The translations under genes were made by a program, and so were the position numbers. 21,662 nt of DNA from Clostridia bacterium. GTDB taxonomy: Bacteria > Bacillota_A > Clostridia > Oscillospirales > CAG-272. The stretch lies in assembly GCA_017626655.1 (NCBI GenBank), contig JAGAIH010000142.1, positions 1 through 21,662 of the forward strand, given 5' to 3'. This document shows, piece after piece, positions 2,535-20,919 of this stretch (position 1 is its first letter; every line of letters starts with the position of its first letter). The notes under the pieces are model-generated. The model was not told the origin of the DNA and ran no database searches. It worked only from the letters and a program-made list of their open reading frames with translations.

Positions 2535-5500
2535 ATGATGAATTTTAGAAAACTCATGTCACTCTTCTTGGCTGTTCTGATGCTTTGCGGCGTGTTTGGA
2601 AGCTTTTCCGTGATCACCGCATCCGCAGCAGAGGCGACCGAGGAGACCACGGGAGATGAGGACGAGGTCCTGATCGAGGATTATATCTCGACGATCTACG
2701 GCTCTCCCGAGGATAAGCTGGCAACCATGAAGCTCAAGACCACCAAGGGGAACTACTCCATCTACGCAGATGAGAAGTCCGGTGAGGTTGCCGTCAAGGA
2801 CCTGGCTACAGGTCAGATCCTGTTCACCAACCCCTACGACATCGGCGTGTCCACCGCGTCCGATAGCGTCAAGAATCAGATCCTCTCCCAGATCATCGTT
2901 AAGTTCACCGAGAACGGCCGTGAGCGCGAGTACTCCTCCTACGAGTATGCCGCACTCCGCGACCAGATCAAGGTCAAGAACATCAAGAACGGTATCCGTG
3001 TGGAGTACACCATCGGTCGTGAGGAGGCCAGACGTCTGGTCCCCCGCCGTATGGAGAAGGAGCGCTTTGAGACCATGATCCAGGCGCCCATGGAGGAGTA
3101 CTACGGCGTTTCCTATGAGGACGCCAAGAAGTTCAAGGACGAGTCGGGCCACCCCCTCCAGTCCGCCTCCTTCTACCTCTGCAAGCAGATGTCCTACTTC
3201 GTTTACAAGGATCTGGATGAGTGCTCTTCCGACCGTCTGAAGGAAGACCTGCTCGATTCCTTCCCCATCGTCAGCAAGTACGATATCTACGTCCTCGATC
3301 CCACCGCGAACATCGTGGAGATCGAGAAGATCGAGGAAGTCATCAAGACCGCTTGTCCCAACTACTCCTACGAGGAGATGGACTACGACCACATGATGAC
3401 CGAGTACACCAGCGATGAGGAGAACCCTCCCGTCTTTAAGATGGCTCTGGAGTACACCCTCGACGCCGATGGATTCACCGTGCGTATGCCCGCCAACGGT
3501 ATCCGCTTCAACGAGTCCAAGTTCCAGCTGACCAATGTCAGCATCCTCCCCTACATGGGCGCCGGTAACAACGCCTATGAGGGCTACACCTTCTACCCCG
3601 ACGGCTCGGGCGCCCTGTTCGCCTTCGAGGATCTGGCCGACCAGAACACCTACTCTGTGGCCTCCAAGATCTACGGCACCGACTACGCTTACCATAAGCT
3701 GACCGGTACCTACCAGCAGACCGTCCGTTACCCCGTCTTCGGTATCGTTGAGACCGCCCGCTACTACGACTGCGTCGCGGACGACGAGGCCACCGGCGAG
3801 ATGAAGACCACCACCGTCAGCGGCGTTATCTACGACGGCGTTATGAAGGCTATGGAGGAGTCCAACTCCGCCGCCCCCGTCTACAAGCAGTTCGGCGCTC
3901 TGATTAACTCCGCTGATATCACCGAGCGTACCGAGAGCCGTGGCTTCGTGGCCATCATCGAGGAGGGCGATGCCCTGACCGAGCTGGTCAACTACCACGC
4001 CGGTGTCCTGTCTCCCTACGACACCGTCCAGATGAACTTCAACCCCCGTCCTAAGGACTCCTACAACGTGGCAGACGCCATCTCGGTCGGTACCAACAGC
4101 GAGTGGACCGTCGTTTCCAACCGTAAGTACGTTGGTAACTACAAGATCCACTACGTCATGCTGGCTGACGAGGAGATCGCTGCCAAGAAGCAGCTGAAGG
4201 CTGACGAGTGGTACGAGTCTTCCTGGTTGGGCATGGCTAAGGCCTACCGCGACTACCTGGAGAACAAGGGCGTCCTGTCTCCTCTGACCGCCGAGCAGAC
4301 CTCCTCCGATATCCCCCTGTATATCGAGGCCTTCGGCGCTATGGAGGTCATTGAGAAGATCGCCTCCATCCCCGTTGAGGTCATGAAGCCCCTGACCTCC
4401 ACCGAGGACGTCATCACCATGTACGAGGAGCTGTCCGGTAAGGGCGCTACCAACATCAACTTCAAGCTGACCGGTTACGCCAACGGCGGTATGTACGCCA
4501 CCGCTCCCAAGAAGCTGAAGTGGGAGAAGGCCGTCACCAAGGATATGTCCATGCAGGAGCTGCTGGACTACGCCGCCTCCGTCGAGAACGGCACCATGGG
4601 CCTGTACCCCGACTTCGACTTCGCTTACATCAGCTCTGATACCATGTCGGATGGCTTCTCCAGAAGAAAGCACTCCATCCGTACCATCGACGATCGTATG
4701 ACCTATAAGCGCGACTGGATCCCCACCCAGCAGAGATACGGTGGCATGTTCCAGATGATCGTCTCCCCCGCTTACTACGAGAACTTCTACGTGAAGTTCA
4801 TGGAGAACTACCTGGAGCTGAACAACCTGACCGGTATCTCGGTCGGCTCCCTGGGTAACGCGCTGAACTCCGACTTCGACGAGGATGAGCCTTACAACCG
4901 CGAGGATGCCAAGGCCTTCACCGCCAAGGCTCTGGAGTACATCACCGGCAAGGATGAGAGCGAGCTGCAGGTTATGGTCGAGGGCGGTAACGCCTTCACC
5001 TGGAAGTACGCCGACCACATCCTGGGCGCCGCCCTGGATTCCTCCCGTTACATCAAGGCCAGCTACAGCGTTCCCTTCATCGGTGTGGTCCTCCACGGCT
5101 ACACCAACTTCACCGGCACTCCTCTGAATATGGAGGGTGACGTGAACTACGCCAAGCTGAAGGCCATTGAGAACGGCGCCGCCGTGTACTTCACTCTGTC
5201 CTATCAGAACACCCAGAAGCTGAAGGAGGACTTCTTCCTCAACCAGTACTACTCTGTCCGTTACGACATCTGGTTCGACGACGTTGTGGAGATCTACAAC
5301 CAGCTGAACACCGAGATGAAGGACGTTCAGAACAAGCTCATCATCGACCACCAGTTCCTGACCGGTATGCGTGTGCCCGATATCGATGAGCTGGATCGCG
5401 ACCTGACCACCGAGTTCGAGTCCGTCCTGGACTTCCAGAACAACAAGGCCGAGTACGAGGCTAAGCAGAAGGCTGAGGCCGTCGCTGACGCCCGTGACCA

Positions 5501-8282
5501 GATCGCCTCCGTCGAGGTCGCCGCCGGCCGCTTCGTCAAGGACTGCGTGACCTACTACAGCGGTATCTCCGGCGCTGCCTACATGTACGTCACCGGTGAC
5601 CGTTCCTTCGAGCGCCGTCTCGCCTCCTACGTCGAGGCCAAGGCCGCTTACGACGCCGTCATGGCCGAGTATGAGGCTGCCGACGAGGCAGGCAAGAAGG
5701 AGATGGAGCCCATCGTCTCCACCGCCGAGGCTACCGAGAAGCAGGCTCTGGGTCAGCTCAGAACCTACATCCGTAACGTTGGCCGCGCGATCGTGACCAT
5801 CGAGAATGAGTACGCCGCCCTGACCCAGCTCCTGGAGGATGCAAAGGCCGGTAAGCTGCTCATCAACAACACCGAGGGCTGCCCTCAGTCCATCATCAAC
5901 GAGATCGAGCTCCAGCTGGCCAACACCGAGAAGCTCATGGAGACCACTCTGGGCGTCAAGTTTAACATGACCGTTGATAAGGCCGAGGTCGATACCTTCC
6001 TGTACACCCACATCTCCACCCTGATCTTCTCCTGCTACGGTGAGGCCAACCACACCAGCGCAGGTATCGTCGGCAAGGCAGAGAACCTGTACAAGATGCT
6101 CTCCGCCGAGGACTACGGCCTGCTCATGAGCGAGCTGGATATCCTCCGCTACCTGGCTGCCAACAAGGATATGACCGACGATCAGCTGATCGCCAAGTAT
6201 GGCCTGAAGGCTGACAAGTCCTCCGTGGACGGTCTGATCCTCTTCATCAAGGAGCTGCTGGGCGAGACCTACAGCTTCGATCCCATCATCGCTAACATGG
6301 ACGGCGGTATCGAGGACAACATCCGCGACTACTTCGTCTCCCTGCTGTACTCCCAGATCACCAACCTGTCCGCAGGCTCCGTGGTCCCCGCTCTGAACTT
6401 CGTTCCCACCCGTATCAACGATAAGGGCCGTATCGTTCCCAACACCGCCAACATCAACAACGTCGTCAAGCTGATCGACGACGAGATCAAGGCTGTGCTG
6501 ACCGGTCCTAAGGGCGTTCTCTACAACATCGAGAACGGCGACTACACGCTCTCCAAGTACTTCACCGAGGAGCAGATGGAGAAGCTCATCGACGCCGGCG
6601 TCAAGATCATCAACGAGAACATCCGTACCGAGCAGAACATCATCCCCGCCGAGAAGGCTGTTGAGTACGCGACTCCCGATACCATGAGAGCCGATCTCCG
6701 CAACTACATCGAGAGCTCCTACTACCGCGCTGCCATCGACGAGATCACTCCCGCCGACGCAGGCGACGTGACCCTCCAGGTCATCACCGTCTCTACCCAG
6801 ACCAGCGCCAGCATCGACCTCCTGGTCAGCCTCCGCGCCGATGCCTACGAGTTCGGAGAGGAGACCAAGTACGAGGATATCGTCAAGGCTATGAAGGCTG
6901 ACACCGAGTTGCAGGCTCTCCTGGACGGCATCAACGATTCCGTCAAGGGCGCTTACGGCGACGTCCGTCCTCAGCTGGAGAAGGCATTCCTGAAGGCCTT
7001 CGCTACCAAGGTCCTGGGCAAGGATAAGGCTCCTACCCTGGAGAACGCTTCCTACGACGTCGAGGACGCCGAGGGCAACAAGACTACCTACAAGCTCCGC
7101 GACGAGGCTCTGGAGATCCTCTCCAAGCTGACCGCTACCTCCACCGTGGACGAGGCCGAGGCCATCGTCGCTGAGATCGTCACCCTGCACGACAAGTACA
7201 TCGAGTCCCTCGACGAGGGCTACGATCCCACCGCCGACGTCAAGAATTACGTCTACTACAGCTTCCTCGCTCTCATGAGAGACCAGGTCCTCAAGGAGAT
7301 CGACAACTACTTCTACGACGCCCAGATGGCTAAGATGGACGCTACCATCCGCGCCAAGGTTGCCGAGAATGTCGAGTCCATCAAGGCTAAGCTCCCCGCC
7401 GAGTACACGGTTTACGACATCTACGCAGAGGTCGCGAGCATCCTGGGTGATTCCGAGAACAACGTCAACGACTTCGTCGACGCCGTTGCCTCCGAGGTCA
7501 CTCACTCCGCCGAGGGCAAGTTCAGCACCGAGGACGACATCCTGGCTTACTACGCATACCTGCTCTTCAACTCCTTCGAGGGCTACGATCTCTCCGAGAA
7601 GCCTACCCTCTCTGTTGAAGGTAACGCCACCAAGGTCAACAACGCGCTGAAGATCCTGGACGCTGATTTCGAGGATCGTCTGCCCCTGCTGCTGGCCCAG
7701 GCCAAGGCGAACACCAAGCGCGGCTTCCTGCCCAACTACAACATCCGCGCCATGTTCACCGCTGAGGAGTACGAGGCACTCGGTAACGAGCTGGTCTCTG
7801 CTCTGATCAAGGCTAAGTTCGCTGAGGAGTCCCAGCGTGAGACCCTCCTTCCCGAGACTCTCCGCTACCTCGAGTACTGCTACTACACCGCAGTCCTGGA
7901 GCAGCTCTCCGCTGACGAGCTTCCCAAGTTCCACGTCTCCGAGATCTACGCCGGTACCCTGAGCGACGCCGCTATGGGTCTGAAGGATCTCATGTACTTC
8001 TTCGTCACCGCTTACTCCGACCTCACCGAGGAGCAGATCGACGCTCTGATCGAGCCTCCCAAGGGCCCCGGCACGGGTGATGACGATGAAGACGAGGCTT
8101 CCCGCTACCTGTCCGATGACGGTCGCATCGTGTCTGTTACCTACGGTACCAAGAACGCTGACGGCAGTTATTCCGCTTACAAGACTTTCATCCTGAACTA
8201 CAACAACTTCTCGGTGAACGTTGAGTACGGCGACGTCACGTACACCATCCCTGCATATGGTTACGTGGTCGTAATGCACTGA
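2535..8282 (+). CDS. Giant secreted DUF5696-type protein with large helical insertion
   Basis: The 1915-residue protein starts at the first of two ATGs behind TAGGAG. A signal peptide covers about residues 1-32 (ending ITASAAE). A beta-rich N-terminal domain follows (about 50-170, GNYSIYADEKSGEVAVKDLA). The stretch at about 338-364 (LPYMGAGNNAYEGYTFYPDG, then SGALF) is what I recognise as DUF5696. Residues 590-870 read like alternating strands and helices of a TIM barrel: LYIEAFGA, GLYPDFDFAY, LQVMVEGGNAF and VVLHGYTNFTG, with acidic residues at strand ends as in glycosidases. A helix-rich, partly coiled-coil region fills about 955-1850. After an acidic linker (GTGDDDEDEAS) comes a terminal beta module (FILNYNNFSVNVEYG, YTIPAYGYVVV) that in smaller relatives directly follows the core. 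The position between sugar permeases suggests surface glycan binding or cleavage; enzymatic activity is not proven. There is no anchor motif, so it is probably secreted or held by partners. Confidence 0.85.
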   Translation: MMNFRKLMSLFLAVLMLCGVFGSFSVITASAAEATEETTGDEDEVLIEDYISTIYGSPEDKLATMKLKTTKGNYSIYADEKSGEVAVKDLATGQILFTNPYDIGVSTASDSVKNQILSQIIVKFTENGREREYSSYEYAALRDQIKVKNIKNGIRVEYTIGREEARRLVPRRMEKERFETMIQAPMEEYYGVSYEDAKKFKDESGHPLQSASFYLCKQMSYFVYKDLDECSSDRLKEDLLDSFPIVSKYDIYVLDPTANIVEIEKIEEVIKTACPNYSYEEMDYDHMMTEYTSDEENPPVFKMALEYTLDADGFTVRMPANGIRFNESKFQLTNVSILPYMGAGNNAYEGYTFYPDGSGALFAFEDLADQNTYSVASKIYGTDYAYHKLTGTYQQTVRYPVFGIVETARYYDCVADDEATGEMKTTTVSGVIYDGVMKAMEESNSAAPVYKQFGALINSADITERTESRGFVAIIEEGDALTELVNYHAGVLSPYDTVQMNFNPRPKDSYNVADAISVGTNSEWTVVSNRKYVGNYKIHYVMLADEEIAAKKQLKADEWYESSWLGMAKAYRDYLENKGVLSPLTAEQTSSDIPLYIEAFGAMEVIEKIASIPVEVMKPLTSTEDVITMYEELSGKGATNINFKLTGYANGGMYATAPKKLKWEKAVTKDMSMQELLDYAASVENGTMGLYPDFDFAYISSDTMSDGFSRRKHSIRTIDDRMTYKRDWIPTQQRYGGMFQMIVSPAYYENFYVKFMENYLELNNLTGISVGSLGNALNSDFDEDEPYNREDAKAFTAKALEYITGKDESELQVMVEGGNAFTWKYADHILGAALDSSRYIKASYSVPFIGVVLHGYTNFTGTPLNMEGDVNYAKLKAIENGAAVYFTLSYQNTQKLKEDFFLNQYYSVRYDIWFDDVVEIYNQLNTEMKDVQNKLIIDHQFLTGMRVPDIDELDRDLTTEFESVLDFQNNKAEYEAKQKAEAVADARDQIASVEVAAGRFVKDCVTYYSGISGAAYMYVTGDRSFERRLASYVEAKAAYDAVMAEYEAADEAGKKEMEPIVSTAEATEKQALGQLRTYIRNVGRAIVTIENEYAALTQLLEDAKAGKLLINNTEGCPQSIINEIELQLANTEKLMETTLGVKFNMTVDKAEVDTFLYTHISTLIFSCYGEANHTSAGIVGKAENLYKMLSAEDYGLLMSELDILRYLAANKDMTDDQLIAKYGLKADKSSVDGLILFIKELLGETYSFDPIIANMDGGIEDNIRDYFVSLLYSQITNLSAGSVVPALNFVPTRINDKGRIVPNTANINNVVKLIDDEIKAVLTGPKGVLYNIENGDYTLSKYFTEEQMEKLIDAGVKIINENIRTEQNIIPAEKAVEYATPDTMRADLRNYIESSYYRAAIDEITPADAGDVTLQVITVSTQTSASIDLLVSLRADAYEFGEETKYEDIVKAMKADTELQALLDGINDSVKGAYGDVRPQLEKAFLKAFATKVLGKDKAPTLENASYDVEDAEGNKTTYKLRDEALEILSKLTATSTVDEAEAIVAEIVTLHDKYIESLDEGYDPTADVKNYVYYSFLALMRDQVLKEIDNYFYDAQMAKMDATIRAKVAENVESIKAKLPAEYTVYDIYAEVASILGDSENNVNDFVDAVASEVTHSAEGKFSTEDDILAYYAYLLFNSFEGYDLSEKPTLSVEGNATKVNNALKILDADFEDRLPLLLAQAKANTKRGFLPNYNIRAMFTAEEYEALGNELVSALIKAKFAEESQRETLLPETLRYLEYCYYTAVLEQLSADELPKFHVSEIYAGTLSDAAMGLKDLMYFFVTAYSDLTEEQIDALIEPPKGPGTGDDDEDEASRYLSDDGRIVSVTYGTKNADGSYSAYKTFILNYNNFSVNVEYGDVTYTIPAYGYVVVMH

Positions 8283-8316: not shown

Positions 8317-9291
8317 ATGACCAACGAAGCGAAGCTTCAACAGACGGTCAGCGCGCCTAAGACCAAGAAGCGCAAGGTTGCTTCCTTGGACAAGAAGAAG
8401 GCCCGCGCCGGCTGGGTATTCGTTCTGCCCTTCGTCATTGGTTTCCTTCTCGTTTACCTGCCTATCATCTGGAACTCCATTTTCATGAGCTTCCATAGCC
8501 TCCATATTGTAACCGGTGGTGGTTACACGCTGGAGTTTGTAGGCCTCGAGAACTACAGTGACGCCCTGTTTGAGGATCCGCTCTTTGTTCAGACCCTGAT
8601 CACGGGTCTGAAGGAGCTGGCCTTCGACGTTCCCGCAATCCTGATCTTTTCCCTGTTCATGGCCGTTCTTCTGAACCAGAAGATGGCCGGCCGTGCCGTT
8701 TTCCGTGCTATCTTCTTCATCCCCGTCATTCTTTCCACGGGTATCATGGAGTCCATCGAGGGCCAGAACATTCTGGGTACCATGATGGAGGGTAGCGACA
8801 GTATTGACGGCTCGGAACAAAGTGCCGCCAGCGAGATCGTTTCCGTCATGGATATCGAGCGTCTGTTCTACTCCATGAAGATCGGTAAAGAGCTGGTCGA
8901 GTACGTCGTTAAGATGATCAACGAGATCTATGACATCGTCAACCGTTCCGGTGTTCAGATGCTGATCTTCCTGGCCGGTCTCCAGTCCATCTCTCCCGCT
9001 ATTTATGAGGCTTGCCGTATCGATGGTTGTACCTCTTGGGAGACCTTCTGGAAGATCACCTTCCCCATGATCAGCCCCATGATCCTGGTCAACGCCGTGT
9101 ACACCATCATTGACTCCTTCACCACCGATTCCAACTCGGTCATGAAGTACATCAACCAGGTGTACCAGGGCTCTGACGGACAGGTTCTCTCCTCCGCCAT
9201 GGCGTGGATGTACTTCCTGATCGTTATGCTCATCCTGGCCGCGGTCGCCGGTATCTTCTCGGCATTCGTCTTCTACCAGAAACGTGATTAA
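8317..9291 (+). CDS. Sugar ABC transporter permease, LplB/UgpA type
   Basis: The 324-residue polytopic membrane protein starts at an ATG behind GAGAGG. A basic cytoplasmic N-terminus (KKRKVASLDKKKARAG) precedes the first helix at about 32-54 (WVFVLPFVIGFLLVYLPIIW). Helices follow at about 98-122 and 128-145, two more flank the EAA loop, and the last is at about 295-317. The EAA loop, at about 226-250 (AIYEACRIDGCTSWETFWKI, then TFPM), is the ATPase docking site of MalF/UgpA-class permeases (COG1175). The gene follows the DUF5696 gene by 34 bases and precedes the partner permease by 12, so all belong to one transcript. A polar stretch at about 148-195 between membrane segments is long for the class. 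The import direction is inferred from the family, and the sugar is unknown. Confidence 0.93.
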   Translation: MTNEAKLQQTVSAPKTKKRKVASLDKKKARAGWVFVLPFVIGFLLVYLPIIWNSIFMSFHSLHIVTGGGYTLEFVGLENYSDALFEDPLFVQTLITGLKELAFDVPAILIFSLFMAVLLNQKMAGRAVFRAIFFIPVILSTGIMESIEGQNILGTMMEGSDSIDGSEQSAASEIVSVMDIERLFYSMKIGKELVEYVVKMINEIYDIVNRSGVQMLIFLAGLQSISPAIYEACRIDGCTSWETFWKITFPMISPMILVNAVYTIIDSFTTDSNSVMKYINQVYQGSDGQVLSSAMAWMYFLIVMLILAAVAGIFSAFVFYQKRD

Positions 9292-9303: not shown

Positions 9304-10404
9304 ATGGATACGAATATGCAAAATACACCCAAGATCACGAAAGAGTCCAAGAATAAGATCCGCGTTGAGTTTGAGCGTACCCCTCTGAAGGAGAGACTGA
9401 AGGCCAAGTTCCTGAACCTCTACTTCTTCCAGCAGGTTGCCTGGATCATCTTCCGTATGGTCCTGCTCGTGGGTATCTCCTACGTGGTCCTGTTCCCCTT
9501 CATCTCTAAGATCGCCGGTTCCTTCATGTCTCCCGAGGACTTCGTGGACGTGACGGTCCGTCTGATCCCCAAGAACTTTACCCTGGATATCTACAAGGCC
9601 GTCCTGTTCGAGCTGGATTACTGGGAGGCATTCGCCAACACCCTGCTGATCTCCCTGCTCTGCGGTCTGCTCCAGACCTTCGTCTGCTGCCTGATCGGTT
9701 ACGGTCTTGCCAAGTTCCGCTTCAAGGGTAACAGCATCGTCATGCTGCTGGTCATCCTGACCATGATCGTGCCTCACCAGACCCTGCAGCTCTCCATGTT
9801 CATGCACTTCCGTTACTTTGACGTTCTGGGCATCCTGTCCTTCCTCAGCGGCGGAGCCAGCATCGGCTTCATGCCCGACGGCTTCAACGAGATCCTGGCA
9901 GGTATCCAGATCTTCAAGCTGGACGACTTCGCTCTGCCTCTGACCAACACCTACTGGCCTCTGGCGATCCTGTCGGCAACCGGCCTGGCATTCAAGAACG
10001 GTCTGTACATCTTCCTGCTGCGCCAGTTCTTCACCGGCGTGCCGGATGCTCTGGAGGAGTCGGCTTACATCGACGGTTCGGGCGTGTTCCACACCTTCTT
10101 CACCATCATCCTTCCTCTGTCGATCCCCATGATGGTCACCGTCTTCATGTTCTCCTTCTGCTGGCAGTGGATGGACGACTTCTACACCGAGCTGTTCTTC
10201 ACCACGTCCAAGATCACCCTGATGCCCGACATCGTGGAGGTCCCCACGTCGCTGAAGACAGACTACGCGGGTCAAAATATGTACTACGCGGCAATCCGCA
10301 ACACCTGCGGTCTGTGTATCATCGCTCCCCTGGTCATCCTGTACTGCTTCGGCCAGAACTTCCTGGTCCAGGGTATCGAGCGCTCCGGTCTGACCGCCGA
10401 GTAA
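9304..10404 (+). CDS. Carbohydrate ABC transporter permease, MalG/AraQ type
   Basis: The 366-residue protein starts at an ATG eight bases after AGGAGG; that site overlaps the stop codon of the preceding permease gene, implying coupled translation. The charged N-terminus (about 1-42) is cytoplasmic, and the first helix lies at about 46-68 (MVLLVGISYVVLFPFI). Several further helices follow (ANTLLISLLCGLLQTFVCCL, IVMLLVILTMIVP). The EAA loop is at about 246-272 (VPDALEESAYIDGSGVFHTF), diagnostic of COG0395 permeases and matching an ATPase-contact loop. At 366 residues it is longer than the usual 270-300; extra sequence lies in the middle loop (GGASIGFMPDGFNEILAGI region) and near the C-terminus. 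It pairs with the upstream LplB/UgpA-type permease to form the heterodimeric channel and is the last gene before the operon terminator. Confidence 0.93.
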   Translation: MDTNMQNTPKITKESKNKIRVEFERTPLKERLKAKFLNLYFFQQVAWIIFRMVLLVGISYVVLFPFISKIAGSFMSPEDFVDVTVRLIPKNFTLDIYKAVLFELDYWEAFANTLLISLLCGLLQTFVCCLIGYGLAKFRFKGNSIVMLLVILTMIVPHQTLQLSMFMHFRYFDVLGILSFLSGGASIGFMPDGFNEILAGIQIFKLDDFALPLTNTYWPLAILSATGLAFKNGLYIFLLRQFFTGVPDALEESAYIDGSGVFHTFFTIILPLSIPMMVTVFMFSFCWQWMDDFYTELFFTTSKITLMPDIVEVPTSLKTDYAGQNMYYAAIRNTCGLCIIAPLVILYCFGQNFLVQGIERSGLTAE

Positions 10405-12979: not shown

Positions 12980-14029
12980 ATGAAACCCTCCGCTATCCAA
13001 CGGCTATGGACAGACCCGACCCTGCTCCTGTCTCCCGACTTTTTCAGCATGAGCTATATCCTCTTCCAAACCGACGGCGACCCGGGCCGCGTAGTGGCCG
13101 CCCGCGTGCCGGATGTTCACACGATCCGTGTGGGTTCCAACCTCCTCGACTGCCTGGAGCTTTCGGAGGAGGCCCTGGCCTATATCATCGAAAAGCGGGA
13201 GGCCACCCGCCCACTCCTGGTTCTGTCCGAGCTGGGGCTGGGCATCCTCTGGAATCGCTACACCCTCTCGGCGGGGCTGGGGCTGTACCTCCACGTCCAC
13301 GCCAATCCAACCTCGGCCGCCCGTCTGATCAACAGCATGGGATGCCCCGCGGGTTTGCTCATATCCAAGCGTGTGCGCGGGATGGGCTCTGCCGTCACCG
13401 CCAAGGACGAGCGATCCTACCGTCCCTTGATGGAGGCCTGTGAGGCCATACAGAATACGCCGCCCTCCCTGTTTCCCGTGGATGATCACCGCCGTGTGTC
13501 CCTTGCCGATCTGCGCGAGACGGTGCGCCGCATGGCCGCCTTCGTGGGCTGTGACCTTTCCTTTACCCTCCGCCGCAAGCACCCCGGCGATTCCATCGCT
13601 CTCCATGCCCGCGTAGGCTGTTACCGTCCCCTCCTGTTGGAGGCGGTTCTCCTTTGCCTGCTGACCGAGATCCGCAACCGATCCGCCACCCGCGGCGGGG
13701 TCTGTTGCCTGGAGCTGCCCGACGAGACAAGCCACGGGGGACTGACCGTCACTCTGCGCTATCCTGTTCTCCCCTCCGCCCCGCCGCTAAGTCGAGCCCC
13801 TCATACCCAATTGGTCAGCGCCGCCGCCCTGGCGGGCCTAGATCTGTATGATTTTCCCGACCTCATCCAACCCCGAGAGGAGGGCGATCTGCCCCTTCAG
13901 AGCATCCTTCTGGATTGGCTCTACGATCCTACCCTCCTGCCCACTGCCGACCTCAAGGCCCGCCTCGATCTCCTCCATACCGAGGCTACCCGCCCCGCAT
14001 ACGAGGGGGAGGAGATCCCACTCCCATAA
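12980..14029 (+). CDS. Unrecognised 349-residue cytoplasmic protein
   Basis: I do not recognise this protein. The ATG follows AAAGGAG with nine bases between and lies about 30 bases after the predicted transcription start. It has no signal peptide or membrane helix and should be cytoplasmic. The N-terminal third (about 1-150) reads as mixed alpha/beta, with GSNLLDCLELSEEALAYIIE and the hydrophobic LGLYLHVHANP. The stretch at about 178-265 (SLADLRETVRRMAAFVGCDL; LLLEAVLLCLLTEIRNRS) faintly resembles the region around a histidine-kinase ATP-binding fold. The N-box Asn and the glycine-rich ATP lid are not visible, so at most it is a degenerate relative. The acidic C-terminus ends EGEEIPLP. It is transcribed alone, between a sigma-A promoter and a terminator, with no functional hint from neighbours. 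Confidence 0.8.
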   Translation: MKPSAIQRLWTDPTLLLSPDFFSMSYILFQTDGDPGRVVAARVPDVHTIRVGSNLLDCLELSEEALAYIIEKREATRPLLVLSELGLGILWNRYTLSAGLGLYLHVHANPTSAARLINSMGCPAGLLISKRVRGMGSAVTAKDERSYRPLMEACEAIQNTPPSLFPVDDHRRVSLADLRETVRRMAAFVGCDLSFTLRRKHPGDSIALHARVGCYRPLLLEAVLLCLLTEIRNRSATRGGVCCLELPDETSHGGLTVTLRYPVLPSAPPLSRAPHTQLVSAAALAGLDLYDFPDLIQPREEGDLPLQSILLDWLYDPTLLPTADLKARLDLLHTEATRPAYEGEEIPLP

Positions 14030-14473: not shown

Positions 14474-16132
<1,659 letters not shown>

Positions 16133-16143
16133 GGTATTATGCA

Positions 16144-16162
16144 GGGAGAATCAATCTCTCCC
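16144..16162 (-). promoter_or_regulatory. Small hairpin in the glnS leader containing the only GA-rich ribosome-like site
   Basis: GGGAGA and TCTCCC pair (six bases, seven-base loop) just upstream of the glnS start. The GGGAGA arm is the nearest Shine-Dalgarno-like sequence, yet it is 24 bases from the ATG and sequestered. A regulatory role is a guess. Confidence 0.35.
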
Positions 16163-16201
16163 ATCAAAACCTTTCGTAAGAATTTCTTATTTGATTTGTT
16201 G

Positions 16202-16257
16202 AAAGTTTTTGGAATTCCTAAAACCTTTTTTCAAAAAGGTTTTAGGCCGCCGGAGGC
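16202..16257 (-). repeat. Dispersed intergenic palindromic element (copy 2)
   Basis: CCTAAAACCTTTTT (16217-16230) and AAAAAGGTTTTAGG (16233-16246) form a perfect 14-bp stem. On the minus strand it is preceded by GCCTCCGGCGGC and followed by GGAATTCCAAAAACTTT. From memory, this layout is common between genes of Oscillospiraceae-type genomes. It sits between gltX and glnS without a T-run, so it is not a standard terminator. Confidence 0.6.
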
Positions 16258-16269
16258 ACGTTCTCCTGC

Positions 16270-17955
16270 TCACTCCGCAAGCTTGTCCAGACGGGCGAAG
16301 ACGCGGTCACGGCCCAGCAGCTGCATGACGGTGTAGAGATCGGGTGCGTTGAGCTTACCCGTCACAGCCAGACGAAGGAAGCCCGACACATCGGCTACGC
16401 TGCCCTTGAAGGCAGAGGGATCGGCCTTGTAGGCCTTCATATCCGCCGCGTAGCCCAGGGAAGCGGCGATGGCCTTCACCTTATCGAACCAGGCGTTCAT
16501 CTCGTCTGCGGGGTCGTAGGAGGCCTTGAAGGCGGTGATGGCGGCCTTCACGTCAGCCAGATCGGTGCCCTCGGGGAAGGCGTCCTTGATCTCAAACAGC
16601 TCGTCGTAGAAGAAGTCCAGGTAGGGGCGCACGTCGGTCCAGACGGTGAAGTCCTTGCGGGGCTTCTTGCCGCCGCGGCCGATGGCGAAGATGGCCTTGG
16701 CGTAGTCGGGGGCGGCGGTCAGCAGAGTGTTCATCTCGGGATCGTACTCCGAAGCCCAGGCGGTGTACTTGGCGTAGACCTCCTCGGCGGTCATGCGGGA
16801 GAGGACGTTCTTGGATACGTCGTTGAGCTTCTGGAAGTCGAAGAGACAGCCCGAGGCCGACATCTTCTTGATGTTGAAGGGGAAGTCGGTGTAGGGCAGA
16901 GCGGTGTTGGCGGCTCTCCACTCCTCGTAGTTGGAGTTGAGCAGAGTCAGCACGTACTCGGCCACCGCCTCGGGGGCATAGCCCATCTTGGCGTAGTCGT
17001 CCAGGTTGGCGCCCATGTCGCGCTTGGAGAGCTTCTTCTTGTTGCCGTTCTCGTCCAGACGCATGATCTGGGAGATGTGCATATACTTAGGAGCCTTGAA
17101 GCCCAGGTAGTAGAAGAGCTGAAGGTGCTTGGGCAGGGAGGGAAGCCACTCCTCGCCGCGGATGACCAGGTTGGTGCCCATGAGATGATCGTCCACCGCG
17201 TGGGCGAAGTGGTAGGTGGGAATGCCATCGGACTTCAACAGCACGAAGTCCTCGTCGTTGACGGGCATTTCCAGCTTGCCGCGCACCAGATCCTGGAAGG
17301 TGATCTTCTTCTCACCGTCCCCGTCGGACAAGAGACGCAGTACCCAGGGATTGCCGGCGGCCAGGTTGGCCTCTACGTCCTCCATGGTGAACTCACGGTG
17401 GGACAGCATCTCGGCCCGTCTCGCGGCGGCCTCGGCCTCCCAGTCCACGCTCTTGATCTCAGCCTTCTTGTCGGCCTGCTTCAAAGCCTCCAGCTCCTCC
17501 TCGGTGGTGAAGACGGGGTAGGCCTTGCCCTCGGCCACCAGCTTCTTGGCGAAGACGTGGTAGAGATGGGCGCGGAGGCTCTGCTTGTAGGGGCCGTAGT
17601 CACCGATGTCGGTCACCTTGCCATCGGGGCCCAGGATGGCGCCCTCGTCGAAATGGATGCCGTATCGCTCCAGGGTGGTGATCAGACCCTCGGCGGCGCC
17701 GGGGACCTCGCGCTTGGCATCGGTGTCCTCGATGCGGAGGTAGAACACGCCGCCCGACTGGTGAGCCAGACGCTCGCCCACCATAACGGGGAACAGACCG
17801 CCGAAGTGGACGAAGCCCGTGGGGGAGGGCGCGAAGCGGGTCACCTTGGCGCCCTCGGGGAGGTTGCGGGCAGGGAATCTGGCCTCGCACTCCTCGGGAG
17901 TCTCGGTAACCTGGGGGAACAGTAAGTCAGCTAACTTTTGATAATTCATATCCAT
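16270..17955 (-). CDS. gltX: Glutamyl-tRNA synthetase
   Basis: The 561-residue class I synthetase charges tRNA-Glu in the cytoplasm. FAPSPTGFVHFGGLF holds the HIGH-type motif at about 50-53, written HFGG rather than the usual HIGG. FYLRIEDTDAKREV at about 75-88 is the family's catalytic-core signature. The KMSKS equivalent KKLSKRDMGA lies at about 307-316. The C-terminal half is helical, as in anticodon-binding domains. At 561 residues it is longer than the usual 470-500, like a long clostridial subgroup. The first ATG (17955) is preferred over the one two codons later (17949) because AAAGGA lies about 11 bases upstream. The gene is 34 bases after the metallo-hydrolase gene and upstream of glnS, so the two glutamate/glutamine synthetases are probably co-expressed. 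Confidence 0.96.
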   Translation of the reverse strand: MDMNYQKLADLLFPQVTETPEECEARFPARNLPEGAKVTRFAPSPTGFVHFGGLFPVMVGERLAHQSGGVFYLRIEDTDAKREVPGAAEGLITTLERYGIHFDEGAILGPDGKVTDIGDYGPYKQSLRAHLYHVFAKKLVAEGKAYPVFTTEEELEALKQADKKAEIKSVDWEAEAAARRAEMLSHREFTMEDVEANLAAGNPWVLRLLSDGDGEKKITFQDLVRGKLEMPVNDEDFVLLKSDGIPTYHFAHAVDDHLMGTNLVIRGEEWLPSLPKHLQLFYYLGFKAPKYMHISQIMRLDENGNKKKLSKRDMGANLDDYAKMGYAPEAVAEYVLTLLNSNYEEWRAANTALPYTDFPFNIKKMSASGCLFDFQKLNDVSKNVLSRMTAEEVYAKYTAWASEYDPEMNTLLTAAPDYAKAIFAIGRGGKKPRKDFTVWTDVRPYLDFFYDELFEIKDAFPEGTDLADVKAAITAFKASYDPADEMNAWFDKVKAIAASLGYAADMKAYKADPSAFKGSVADVSGFLRLAVTGKLNAPDLYTVMQLLGRDRVFARLDKLAE

Positions 17956-18778: not shown

Positions 18779-20845
18779 TTACTTCTTCTCCTCCTTCTCG
18801 TCCAGGAAGTACTGGGAGTAGATGGTGTTCGCGGTCTTGAACAGCTCGAACTCCTTGTAAGCGCACTCGTTGCACTCGGTGAACTTCAGCTCGCCGAAGT
18901 TGGCGGTGACGTAAGCCTTACCGGCCTCCAGGTACTTGGAGTAGCCGCTGATCTTGGCCTTCTGGAAGGACAGATCGTTGTAGTAGTTCACGTCGGTCTT
19001 CTTGAGCTGCTTGGAGGTCACGGAGGCATCCAGGTTGAAGACCACGGGGATGATGGGCATATCAGCCATCAGGATACCCTCGGCGGCGCGGAGATCCTCG
19101 GCGCGGTTGGCGACGGTCTTCTCTGCGTAGATCTTCTCCATCAGAGTGTTGTACTCCTCGCTGTCGTAGCCGGTGATGTGGGGGGTCAGCAGGTACTCGT
19201 CGGGGTTGGACATATCCATGCCGCGGCCGGAGAAGGGCTTAGCGAAGGGAGCCAGCACCGAGAAGGGATCGGCGGAGAATGCCACGTAGTCGAAGAGGAT
19301 GGCCTGGAAGGCACCGGCACGCAGCTCCTCGGCGTAGAGGTCGTCACAGATATCTGCGGGGATGGACTCGGTGTACTTGTACCAGTCGTTGTTCTGGATG
19401 GTGCCGATCTTCTTGGCGGAGACGTTGAAGCCCAGGGCCTTCCAGTTCTCCACGATGATGTCGGCGATGGCGCAGTGGACCTCGTCGTAGGCGGCGACGG
19501 TCAGCTCGAAGGTGTACTGGGAGGGCTTGATGCCGGCCTCGGACAGCAGGGCAGCGGCCTTGGCGGCGTCAGTACCCAGGTTGTCGTAAGTAGCGGTGCA
19601 GGCGTCGCGGAACAGAACCTTGCGGTTGCCGGACTCAAAGATACCGGTGGGGACCAGACCGGTAGCGGCCTGGGCGTAAACGACGGCGTCCACGATGGCG
19701 TTGCGATCGATGGCCAGAGACAGAGCCTGGCGGACCTTGGCGTCGGCGAAGAGCTTAGCGCCCTCCTCGGTGCCGTTGTCCACGATGGCGTTCTGGTTGA
19801 GGTAAATGGAGTTGGTGGAGAAGGACTTCTCGGCGATCACGGCATCGGCGGCAATGGAGCTGTCCTTACGGAGGGCCAGGGGCACGTCAGCGATGTACAT
19901 GACCATACCGGCATCGTACATAGCCACCAGCTGCTCGTCGGTGAGGGAGCAGTCCACGGTGATCTTGTAGGGAGTGACGGACTTCTTCAGACGGTCCTCC
20001 TCGTTGTCGCGGAAGTAGTAGATGTTGCGCTCCAGCATGAAGTCGGTGATGGACTGTCTGGCGCCCTCGATACCGATCTTGTCAAAGCCGTTATCGTCGA
20101 CCCACTCGTGCAGGGCGTCGAAGTAATTCTCGGACTTGTCGGTGGAGGTCTTCATGTTGACACGGCCCAGCTTGAAGGGACCGCTGCAGACCATGGTACC
20201 GGGCTTCTTGGCCCAGTCGTCGGACTTGGAGACGATGTCATCGCGCAGGGGAGCGAGAGCCAGGCTGGTCAGGTTCAGCATGAACTGATCGTAGTCGATC
20301 TTGCCCTCGAAGTTGATCTCCAGCATCTGCTGCTCGGCGGGGTAAATGCCCACGTCGTCGATGGAGGCATCGCCCTCCTTGGCGGCGCGCGCGTTCTTGA
20401 TGTCGAACAGAAGGGCGGCGGCCTCGTAGTTGACGTCCACCTCAAGGAGACGCTTCCAGGCGAAGACGATGTCGTTTGCGGAGACGGCGGTACCGTCGGA
20501 CCAGTTGGTGGTCTTCAGGTAGAGCTTCATGGTGTACTCGCCGGCGGCCTCGTTCTCCTCAATGACGTACTCCTCAACGAGAGAATTCTTGACCTTGCCG
20601 TTCTCGTCCAGCTTGAACAGAGTGTCGAACATGAGGCTGACCACACTGGCCACGGCCTCGTTGGTGTAGGCCTTGGCGGGGTCGAGGTCGTAGACATTGT
20701 CCGTCAGGTACGCGGTGATGTACTGACCCTTGTCCTCTTCCTTTTTCTCGGTCTTCTTCTTGTCCTCGAACTCACAGCCGACAAAGGCGAAGCAGGTGAG
20801 CAGGGTAGCGGCACAAAGAAGCAACGCAAAGATACGCTTCATCAT
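18779..20845 (-). CDS. ABC transporter substrate-binding lipoprotein, family 5 (oligopeptide type)
   Basis: The 688-residue surface lipoprotein captures peptides or similar ligands for an ABC importer. The start is the first of the MMK pair (20845), 10-12 bases after AAGGAGGAG. The signal peptide MMKRIFALLLCAATLL ends at an FVGC lipobox (Cys about 24), followed by a very charged linker (EFEDKKKTEKKEEDKG). The family-5 fold is shown by YDLDPAKAYTNEAVASVVSL, WSDGTAVSANDIVFAWKRLL and KVRQALSLAIDRNAIVDAV. It is longer than typical OppA-like proteins (about 530-560). No permease or ATPase gene lies beside it, so it is an orphan here and may serve a transporter encoded elsewhere. It has its own promoter and terminator and uses the same codon set as the ABC operon, suggesting good expression. 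Confidence 0.93.
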   Translation of the reverse strand: MMKRIFALLLCAATLLTCFAFVGCEFEDKKKTEKKEEDKGQYITAYLTDNVYDLDPAKAYTNEAVASVVSLMFDTLFKLDENGKVKNSLVEEYVIEENEAAGEYTMKLYLKTTNWSDGTAVSANDIVFAWKRLLEVDVNYEAAALLFDIKNARAAKEGDASIDDVGIYPAEQQMLEINFEGKIDYDQFMLNLTSLALAPLRDDIVSKSDDWAKKPGTMVCSGPFKLGRVNMKTSTDKSENYFDALHEWVDDNGFDKIGIEGARQSITDFMLERNIYYFRDNEEDRLKKSVTPYKITVDCSLTDEQLVAMYDAGMVMYIADVPLALRKDSSIAADAVIAEKSFSTNSIYLNQNAIVDNGTEEGAKLFADAKVRQALSLAIDRNAIVDAVVYAQAATGLVPTGIFESGNRKVLFRDACTATYDNLGTDAAKAAALLSEAGIKPSQYTFELTVAAYDEVHCAIADIIVENWKALGFNVSAKKIGTIQNNDWYKYTESIPADICDDLYAEELRAGAFQAILFDYVAFSADPFSVLAPFAKPFSGRGMDMSNPDEYLLTPHITGYDSEEYNTLMEKIYAEKTVANRAEDLRAAEGILMADMPIIPVVFNLDASVTSKQLKKTDVNYYNDLSFQKAKISGYSKYLEAGKAYVTANFGELKFTECNECAYKEFELFKTANTIYSQYFLDEKEEKK

Positions 20846-20919
20846 GGTTGGGTTTCTCCTCCTTGTTGTGCGGTGCCTCCAAAGGTCGTTTGGGGACACG
20901 TATACAGTTTTCTCACACT

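Follow-up and report, generated by a model that had tools for sequence, protein, structure and literature searches.

The closest described relatives of the protein considered here are enzymes of the GH129 type. NagBb is a GH129 alpha-N-acetylgalactosaminidase (PDB 5wzn), and DagB / ZGAL_3152 is a GH129-like 3,6-anhydro-D-galactosidase (PDB 5opq, 8rzk) situated in a carrageenan cluster. Asp435 of NagBb is catalytic, and of the two catalytic residues it alone is kept in the related anhydrogalactosidase (PMC5698469): DagB has this Asp (Asp486), and the second catalytic residue is not conserved there. We analysed the 21,662-nucleotide contig JAGAIH010000142.1 from a Clostridia bacterium, probably one of the gut, called the window in the following. 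It carries a gene of one uninterrupted open frame of 1915 codons whose product contains the Pfam domain of unknown function DUF5696. The core of this protein resembles GH129; unlike NagBb and DagB, which lack any insert, it is split by a helical insert of 902 residues, and it has Ser772 where NagBb has the catalytic Asp435. The insert was confirmed to be a true insertion into the DUF5696 protein and forms the long end of a graded size series.

The match of the window protein to DUF5696 (PF18952), a family already named in the original prediction, is strong (E 3e-129, 432.7 bits, curated cut-off 25.6). The best stretch comprises residues 468-942, corresponding to profile positions 133-576 of 612. 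The C-terminal part of the profile (577-612) lies outside this stretch and was found 902 residues further on by a custom profile. With the custom profiles the core ends at residue 953 and the C-terminal beta motif occupies residues 1856-1913 (E 1.3e-26). The intervening residues 954-1855 follow on from the first strand of the C-terminal beta domain, contain 12 percent Ala, 10 percent Glu and 10 percent Leu, and are acidic just before residue 1856. A structure predicted for the piece 930-1915, without the core, is mostly helical until the C-terminal strands, which are less confident there (mean pLDDT (predicted local distance difference test) 87, predicted template modelling score 0.77). These results bear out the prediction made from the sequence alone, which had placed a helical insertion of about 900 residues at 5400..8085 between a core ending near residue 950 and a terminal beta part after residue 1855, and had described it as rich in Ala, Glu and Leu with an acidic linker; its borders were right within 15 bases (5394-8099). 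Since the insert runs as a loop out of one beta domain and back into the same domain, the term arm fits better than stalk.

As the family under study we took the bacterial family of genome G003, regarded as the window's own, since G003 carries the close relative L003; this protein is 83 percent identical to the window protein in the best segment. Close relatives are encoded at three genome loci. At least 120 relatives were listed (1158 found), with 46-95 percent identity, and most of those listed align over the full length; because of these alignments and the confident all-helical prediction the insert is not a product of chance. A sample of 299 genomes from the phylum gave, among the matches listed outside G003, 44 strong ones to DUF5696. 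Of these, 43 continue to profile position 600-612, the exception being G293:C145, which stops at 506; the matches sit in open frames of 731-980 residues. Core and C-terminal end are therefore adjacent in the sampled proteins outside the family, as the original prediction had stated for smaller relatives. The 98 genomes of the family gave 90 matches above the DUF5696 cut-off, where the main match usually stops at about 573-583 and the open frames mostly measure 919-2070 residues.

For the comparison of loci, 87 of these 90 were fetched and L001 and L002 were added by similarity, giving 89 family loci; 13 loci from other genomes of the phylum (L158-L170) served as outgroup, so that 102 loci were available. 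The outgroup proteins (745-967 residues) share with the window protein the core, the C-terminal motif and the place between an NHL/Yip1 gene and a permease pair, and differ from it in having no insert. In 12 of the 13 the distance from core end to C-terminal motif is -5 to 4 residues; L167 gave no C-terminal match, and the matches of L164, L166 and L170 are weak (E 0.003-0.025). The insert could be measured in 88 of the 89 family loci (L113 is cut off) and ranges from 5 to 989 residues: 5-22 in 8 loci, 53-99 in 51, 116-188 in 7, 209-297 in 11, 405-529 in 5, and 903-989 in 6. Apart from this series, the DUF5696 proteins of L117, L126, L146 and L154 (1607-1743 residues) owe their extra length less to the arm than to the core or the part before it; here the core ends at residue 1406-1509, marking a second site of enlargement.

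We considered whether the long arms go back to a single event. Among proteins with inserts of at least 850 residues, 124 of 126 match all five segments of the window insert. The remaining two, L150 (989 residues) and L156 (972 residues), match none of the five, and their arms are Ala-rich (19 and 23 percent). The 260 inserts of at least 150 residues fall into 27 clusters at reciprocal 60 percent coverage, or 19 by any detectable link; most come from length-limited protein searches, so that these numbers describe diversity and not frequency. On a tree of 55 chosen cores the long-arm state needs three changes. Placing all long forms in one group was rejected by the approximately unbiased test (p 0.0002; grouping with L150 alone 0.0002; with L156 alone 0.003), carried out under a simple model after an earlier tree had been viewed and with several branches of the 55-core tree weak. 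The unrelated insert sequences and the core tree agree on separate origins: arms of at least 900 residues emerged independently three times or more, without a detectable common sequence. The original prediction thus stands in that the insertion is real, but not as one 900-residue event common to all long forms. It had also named an insert present in all close relatives as an argument against insertion; this is the case within the window's clade and no longer one step further out. The base of the window arm (N1) is recognisable in 35 of 187 shorter inserts, and a shorter ancestral arm beneath all three long-arm lineages is possible. A common 200-residue building unit of long inserts was rejected, the profiles of segments R1, R2 and R3 matching none of the 187 shorter inserts (E < 1e-3).

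Within the window insert, profile self-comparison found that residues 1255-1438 resemble 1661-1827 (E 1.4e-8); a third copy, more weakly supported, may lie between the two. Structure searches gave no confident match for the piece 930-1915 as a whole, and the insert matches no Pfam family of carbohydrate or wall binding at E up to 0.1. Used as the only query, in a search that would miss sequences sharing few exact words or differing greatly in length, the insert returned six proteins, three with DUF5696 and three without a Pfam domain. The latter were read as pieces of DUF5696 proteins, and the arm as a free-standing domain elsewhere was dropped. Proteins of the window's clade have a median identity to the window protein of 45 percent in the insert, 71 percent in the core and 85 percent in the C-terminal motif; by this measure the insert evolves faster than its flanks.

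The relationship of the core to GH129 and GH129-like genes is supported by hhalign (E 7e-62). The GH129 fold, including the C-terminal beta domain, is present in the model of the relative P0188 (1182 residues, shorter insert). Whether the terminal strands pack back on the core had been proposed as a check of the insertion; in this model the alignment to GH129 structures covers the core and runs on through the strands behind the insert to the end of those structures. In 326 family-type proteins (315 distinct slices) the column of Asp435 is occupied by Thr in 204, Ser in 116 and other residues in 6, whereas outside the family Asp is found in 7 of 13. Since this column is Ser or Thr in 320 of 326 and never Asp or Glu, the DUF5696 core is probably a pseudo-glycosidase that has lost glycosidase activity. 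The column of Glu478 of NagBb, which we take to be the second catalytic residue of GH129, is variable in the same 326 proteins (Asp 152, Glu 75, Ser 56, Asn 30, others 13). Separate genes of true GH129 type with an LDVF motif occur in genomes of close relatives (L010, L011 and L179; L011 matches NagBb with E 3.5e-120). Literature searches on GH129 and anhydro-D-galactosidase, on DUF5696 and on the combination of Yip1, NHL and ABC (ATP-binding cassette), covering mainly journals open without subscription, gave nothing relevant, the matches to the last being unrelated by title.

The gene lies in an operon-like run on the + strand of the window, consisting of the NHL/Yip1 gene, the DUF5696 gene and two permeases of the MalF/MalG type. 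The NHL/Yip1 gene was recognised directly upstream of DUF5696 in 101 of 102 loci. In relatives the wider order is solute-binding protein, two permeases, NHL/Yip1, DUF5696, two permeases; the upstream solute-binding gene is known from these relatives, as the window begins too late to include its position. In 74 of the 102 loci the full set of five flanking genes (permeases and NHL/Yip1) could be identified, the others being cut by contig or region ends or named differently by our simple rule. Upstream genes of L003, L134 and L168 contain SBP_bac_1 or SBP_bac_8 domains. By its gene families the run is a conserved carbohydrate-type ABC importer operon of the MalF/MalG type. That the importer substrate would be a carbohydrate we infer from what the gene families are called, from a CBM_35 trace that stays below cut-off in one solute-binding protein, and from the presence of glycosidase genes close to L158 and L165 (outgroup) and to L077 and L119 (family). 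A second solute-binding gene, searched for with three outgroup proteins as queries within the fetched stretches, is present in 9 of 13 outgroup loci versus 0 of 89 family loci. In the outgroup loci L159 and L160 up to five solute-binding-type genes follow the permeases in series.

The explanation that we tentatively prefer, at somewhat below an even chance, is that the DUF5696 protein is a non-catalytic, GH129-type, glycan-handling extracellular subunit of a carbohydrate ABC importer, docked to the importer by its arm; loss of catalysis, the glycan and the docking are all parts that we infer. The GH129-type core without glycosidase activity would bind a glycan and not cut it. The arm emerges from the loop that follows strand one of the C-terminal beta domain and returns via the acidic linker; a base of about 180 residues, which some of the shorter arms share, bears a tip with helical repeats. 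By this arm the domain would dock to the importer outside the membrane, most likely to the downstream permease pair. It is also conceivable, but improbable, that a glycosidase lost its catalytic Asp, the operon lost the second solute-binding protein, and the pseudo-enzyme became the substrate receptor for the permease pair thus orphaned; the arm would then dock to an enlarged loop of the permease.

A hint of a contact between arm and permease 2 came from the loop between its transmembrane segments TM3 and TM4, for which we assumed the topology of MalG. This loop measures 43-80 residues in 20 loci with inserts of at least 200 residues, 36-59 in 66 loci with shorter inserts, and 22-42 in the 13 outgroup loci. 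On a log scale and corrected for the tree, insert size and loop length are correlated (r 0.44, p 2.7e-5), and in a scan of 41 length features on this scale the segment with the permease 2 loop ranks first (p 6e-5).

Several points speak against the preferred explanation. On the raw scale the correlation between insert and loop is weak (r 0.20, p 0.065), and the last segment of permease 2, near the C-terminus, has a far lower p (8e-6) in the scan; no loop trend was seen among the loci with large inserts (rho -0.10, n 21). Moreover, the log scale and the loop were picked after longer permease 2 genes had been noticed. The helical C-terminal tail of the solute-binding protein was considered as partner of the insert and dropped as evidence. 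This tail has at least 82 residues in all 21 readable loci with inserts of at least 200 residues (22 in total, L002 being unreadable), and at least 70 residues also in 12 of 60 readable loci with shorter inserts. With correction for the tree (n 81) the association is r 0.17 (p 0.14, signs 37:35) on the log scale and r 0.33 (p 0.003, signs 35:37) on the raw scale, and is mostly due to one clade; no homology between tail and insert was found. That the insert sequences occupying the same site are unrelated speaks against one conserved docking surface. Finally, other carboxylates of the core are near-invariant (Asp780 99 percent, Asp791 98 percent, Glu879 100 percent) and could support an unusual catalysis.

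We weighed four other explanations of the insert. A binding or adhesion module that, instead of a membrane anchor, would hold the freely secreted protein at the cell wall or on a glycan is the strongest of them, though still unlikely. By eye the window protein has no lipobox-like or sorting motif, so that some other means of retention would be expected, and the tip in the window's clade is a recognisable, confidently predicted helical domain; yet the insert has none of the Pfam matches named above for such binding, and the tips found at the same site are unrelated to one another. A plain spacer, in which length alone matters and any helical sequence suffices, would suit the at least three independent arms of 900-990 residues without detectable common sequence and the Ala-rich arms of L150 and L156. 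However, a spacer that exits and re-enters one domain could connect it to something else only if the tip binds. In addition, one family contains sizes from 5 to 989 residues, and all five segments are recognised in 124 proteins of the window's clade; we consider the spacer rather improbable.

We give the same low weight to the view that the inserts grew mostly by neutral change, in a surface loop that tolerates it and in a secreted protein that evolves fast. The faster change of the insert relative to its flanks and the enlargement of other sites in L117, L126, L146 and L154 would be expected from such growth, but a confident domain of 902 residues recognisable in 124 proteins would be costly to maintain. 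That the region is no insertion but an integral domain, or an artefact of fusion or assembly, is very unlikely. Close relatives do carry it; against this stand 8 family loci with only 5-22 residues at the site, 12 of 13 outgroup loci with at most 4 (the 13th is unreadable), GH129 enzymes without an insert, and the agreement of many separate contigs.

New relative to the original prediction are the kinship with GH129, the loss of the catalytic Asp, the growth of arms in graded sizes and repeatedly at one site, and the possible link to a permease. DUF5696 gains an identity as a GH129 relative with the catalytic Asp lost in the family and a putative role on the importer side. One loop of an enzyme fold that grew arms of up to about 990 residues several times offers a natural series on large helical insertions, which bears on how new helical domains arise. 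If the pseudo-enzyme did take over as receptor, bacteria would have a parallel to the human amino-acid transporters with their enzyme-like heavy chains. rBAT and 4F2hc have amylase-like barrels and are transporter subunits, not enzymes; rBAT appeared at rank 36 of our fold search. The parallel would concern the working principle only, as these human proteins are GH13-like and serve another transporter class than the DUF5696 importer, and to our knowledge they have no comparable arm.

Table 1. Positions of the operon-like run and of the parts of the DUF5696 protein in the window
Feature	Positions	Strand	Basis
NHL repeat / TPR-like / Yip1 membrane protein, 719 residues	357..2516	+	Pfam Yip1 2e-16, NHL 3e-7
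DUF5696 gene, 1915 residues	2535..8282	+	Open frame, Pfam, relatives
Sec signal-peptide-like N-terminus, residues 1-32	2535..2630	+	Inspection of translation by eye
GH129-like core, residues 40-953, including first strand of C-terminal beta domain (IIDHQFLTGMRV)	2652..5393	+	Pfam, custom profiles, fold, hhalign
Ser772, column of GH129 catalytic Asp435	4848..4850	+	hhalign column match
Glu816, column of second GH129 residue Glu478; variable in relatives	4980..4982	+	hhalign column match
Helical insert, residues 954-1855 (902 residues)	5394..8099	+	Custom profiles, composition, model
N1, base of arm with long helices, residues 954-1136; also recognised in part of the inserts from other size classes	5394..5942	+	Profiles, model
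N2, residues 1137-1253, helical	5943..6293	+	Profile matches, model; segment border chosen by us
R1, residues 1254-1448, similar to R3	6294..6878	+	Self-comparison E 1.4e-8
R2, residues 1449-1658, possible third copy, weak	6879..7508	+	E 4e-4, probability 33 percent
R3, residues 1659-1833, similar to R1	7509..8033	+	Profile self-comparison
Acidic linker, residues 1834-1855, low model confidence	8034..8099	+	Composition, model
Remaining strands of C-terminal beta domain, residues 1856-1915 plus stop	8100..8282	+	Custom profile, model; packing on relative P0188
Permease 1 of downstream pair, MalF/UgpA type	8317..9291	+	Pfam match, order in relatives
Permease 2 of downstream pair, MalG/UgpE type	9304..10404	+	Pfam match, order in relatives
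Permease 2 TM3-TM4 loop	about 9769-9951	+	Coordinates carried over from L003

A motif scan meant to contrast a membrane anchor in the outgroup with a cleavable signal in the family gave 28 of 88 for the family and 4 of 13 for the outgroup; it was too crude to decide and was not used. Opposite the DUF5696 and NHL/Yip1 genes, nearly full-length open frames are present on the - strand (2559-8279, 1906 residues; 300-2363, 687 residues). They exist because TTA, CTA and TCA codons are nearly absent (1 in 1915 in DUF5696) and were not taken for genes. The relatives contain 1-20 such codons in seven of eight checked, and L001 none.

Scans of the window for transfer RNA, transfer-messenger RNA and Rfam families gave no match. 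Elsewhere in the window, the + strand has a 349-residue open frame (12980-14029) for which Pfam gave no match at E 0.001. On the - strand, 18779-20899 encodes a solute-binding protein of the peptide type (SBP_bac_5); no permease gene was seen beside it in the part of the nearby frames that was scanned. Two adjacent genes for class I tRNA synthetases of the Glu/Gln type (552 and 561 residues) lie on the - strand at 14474-17955.
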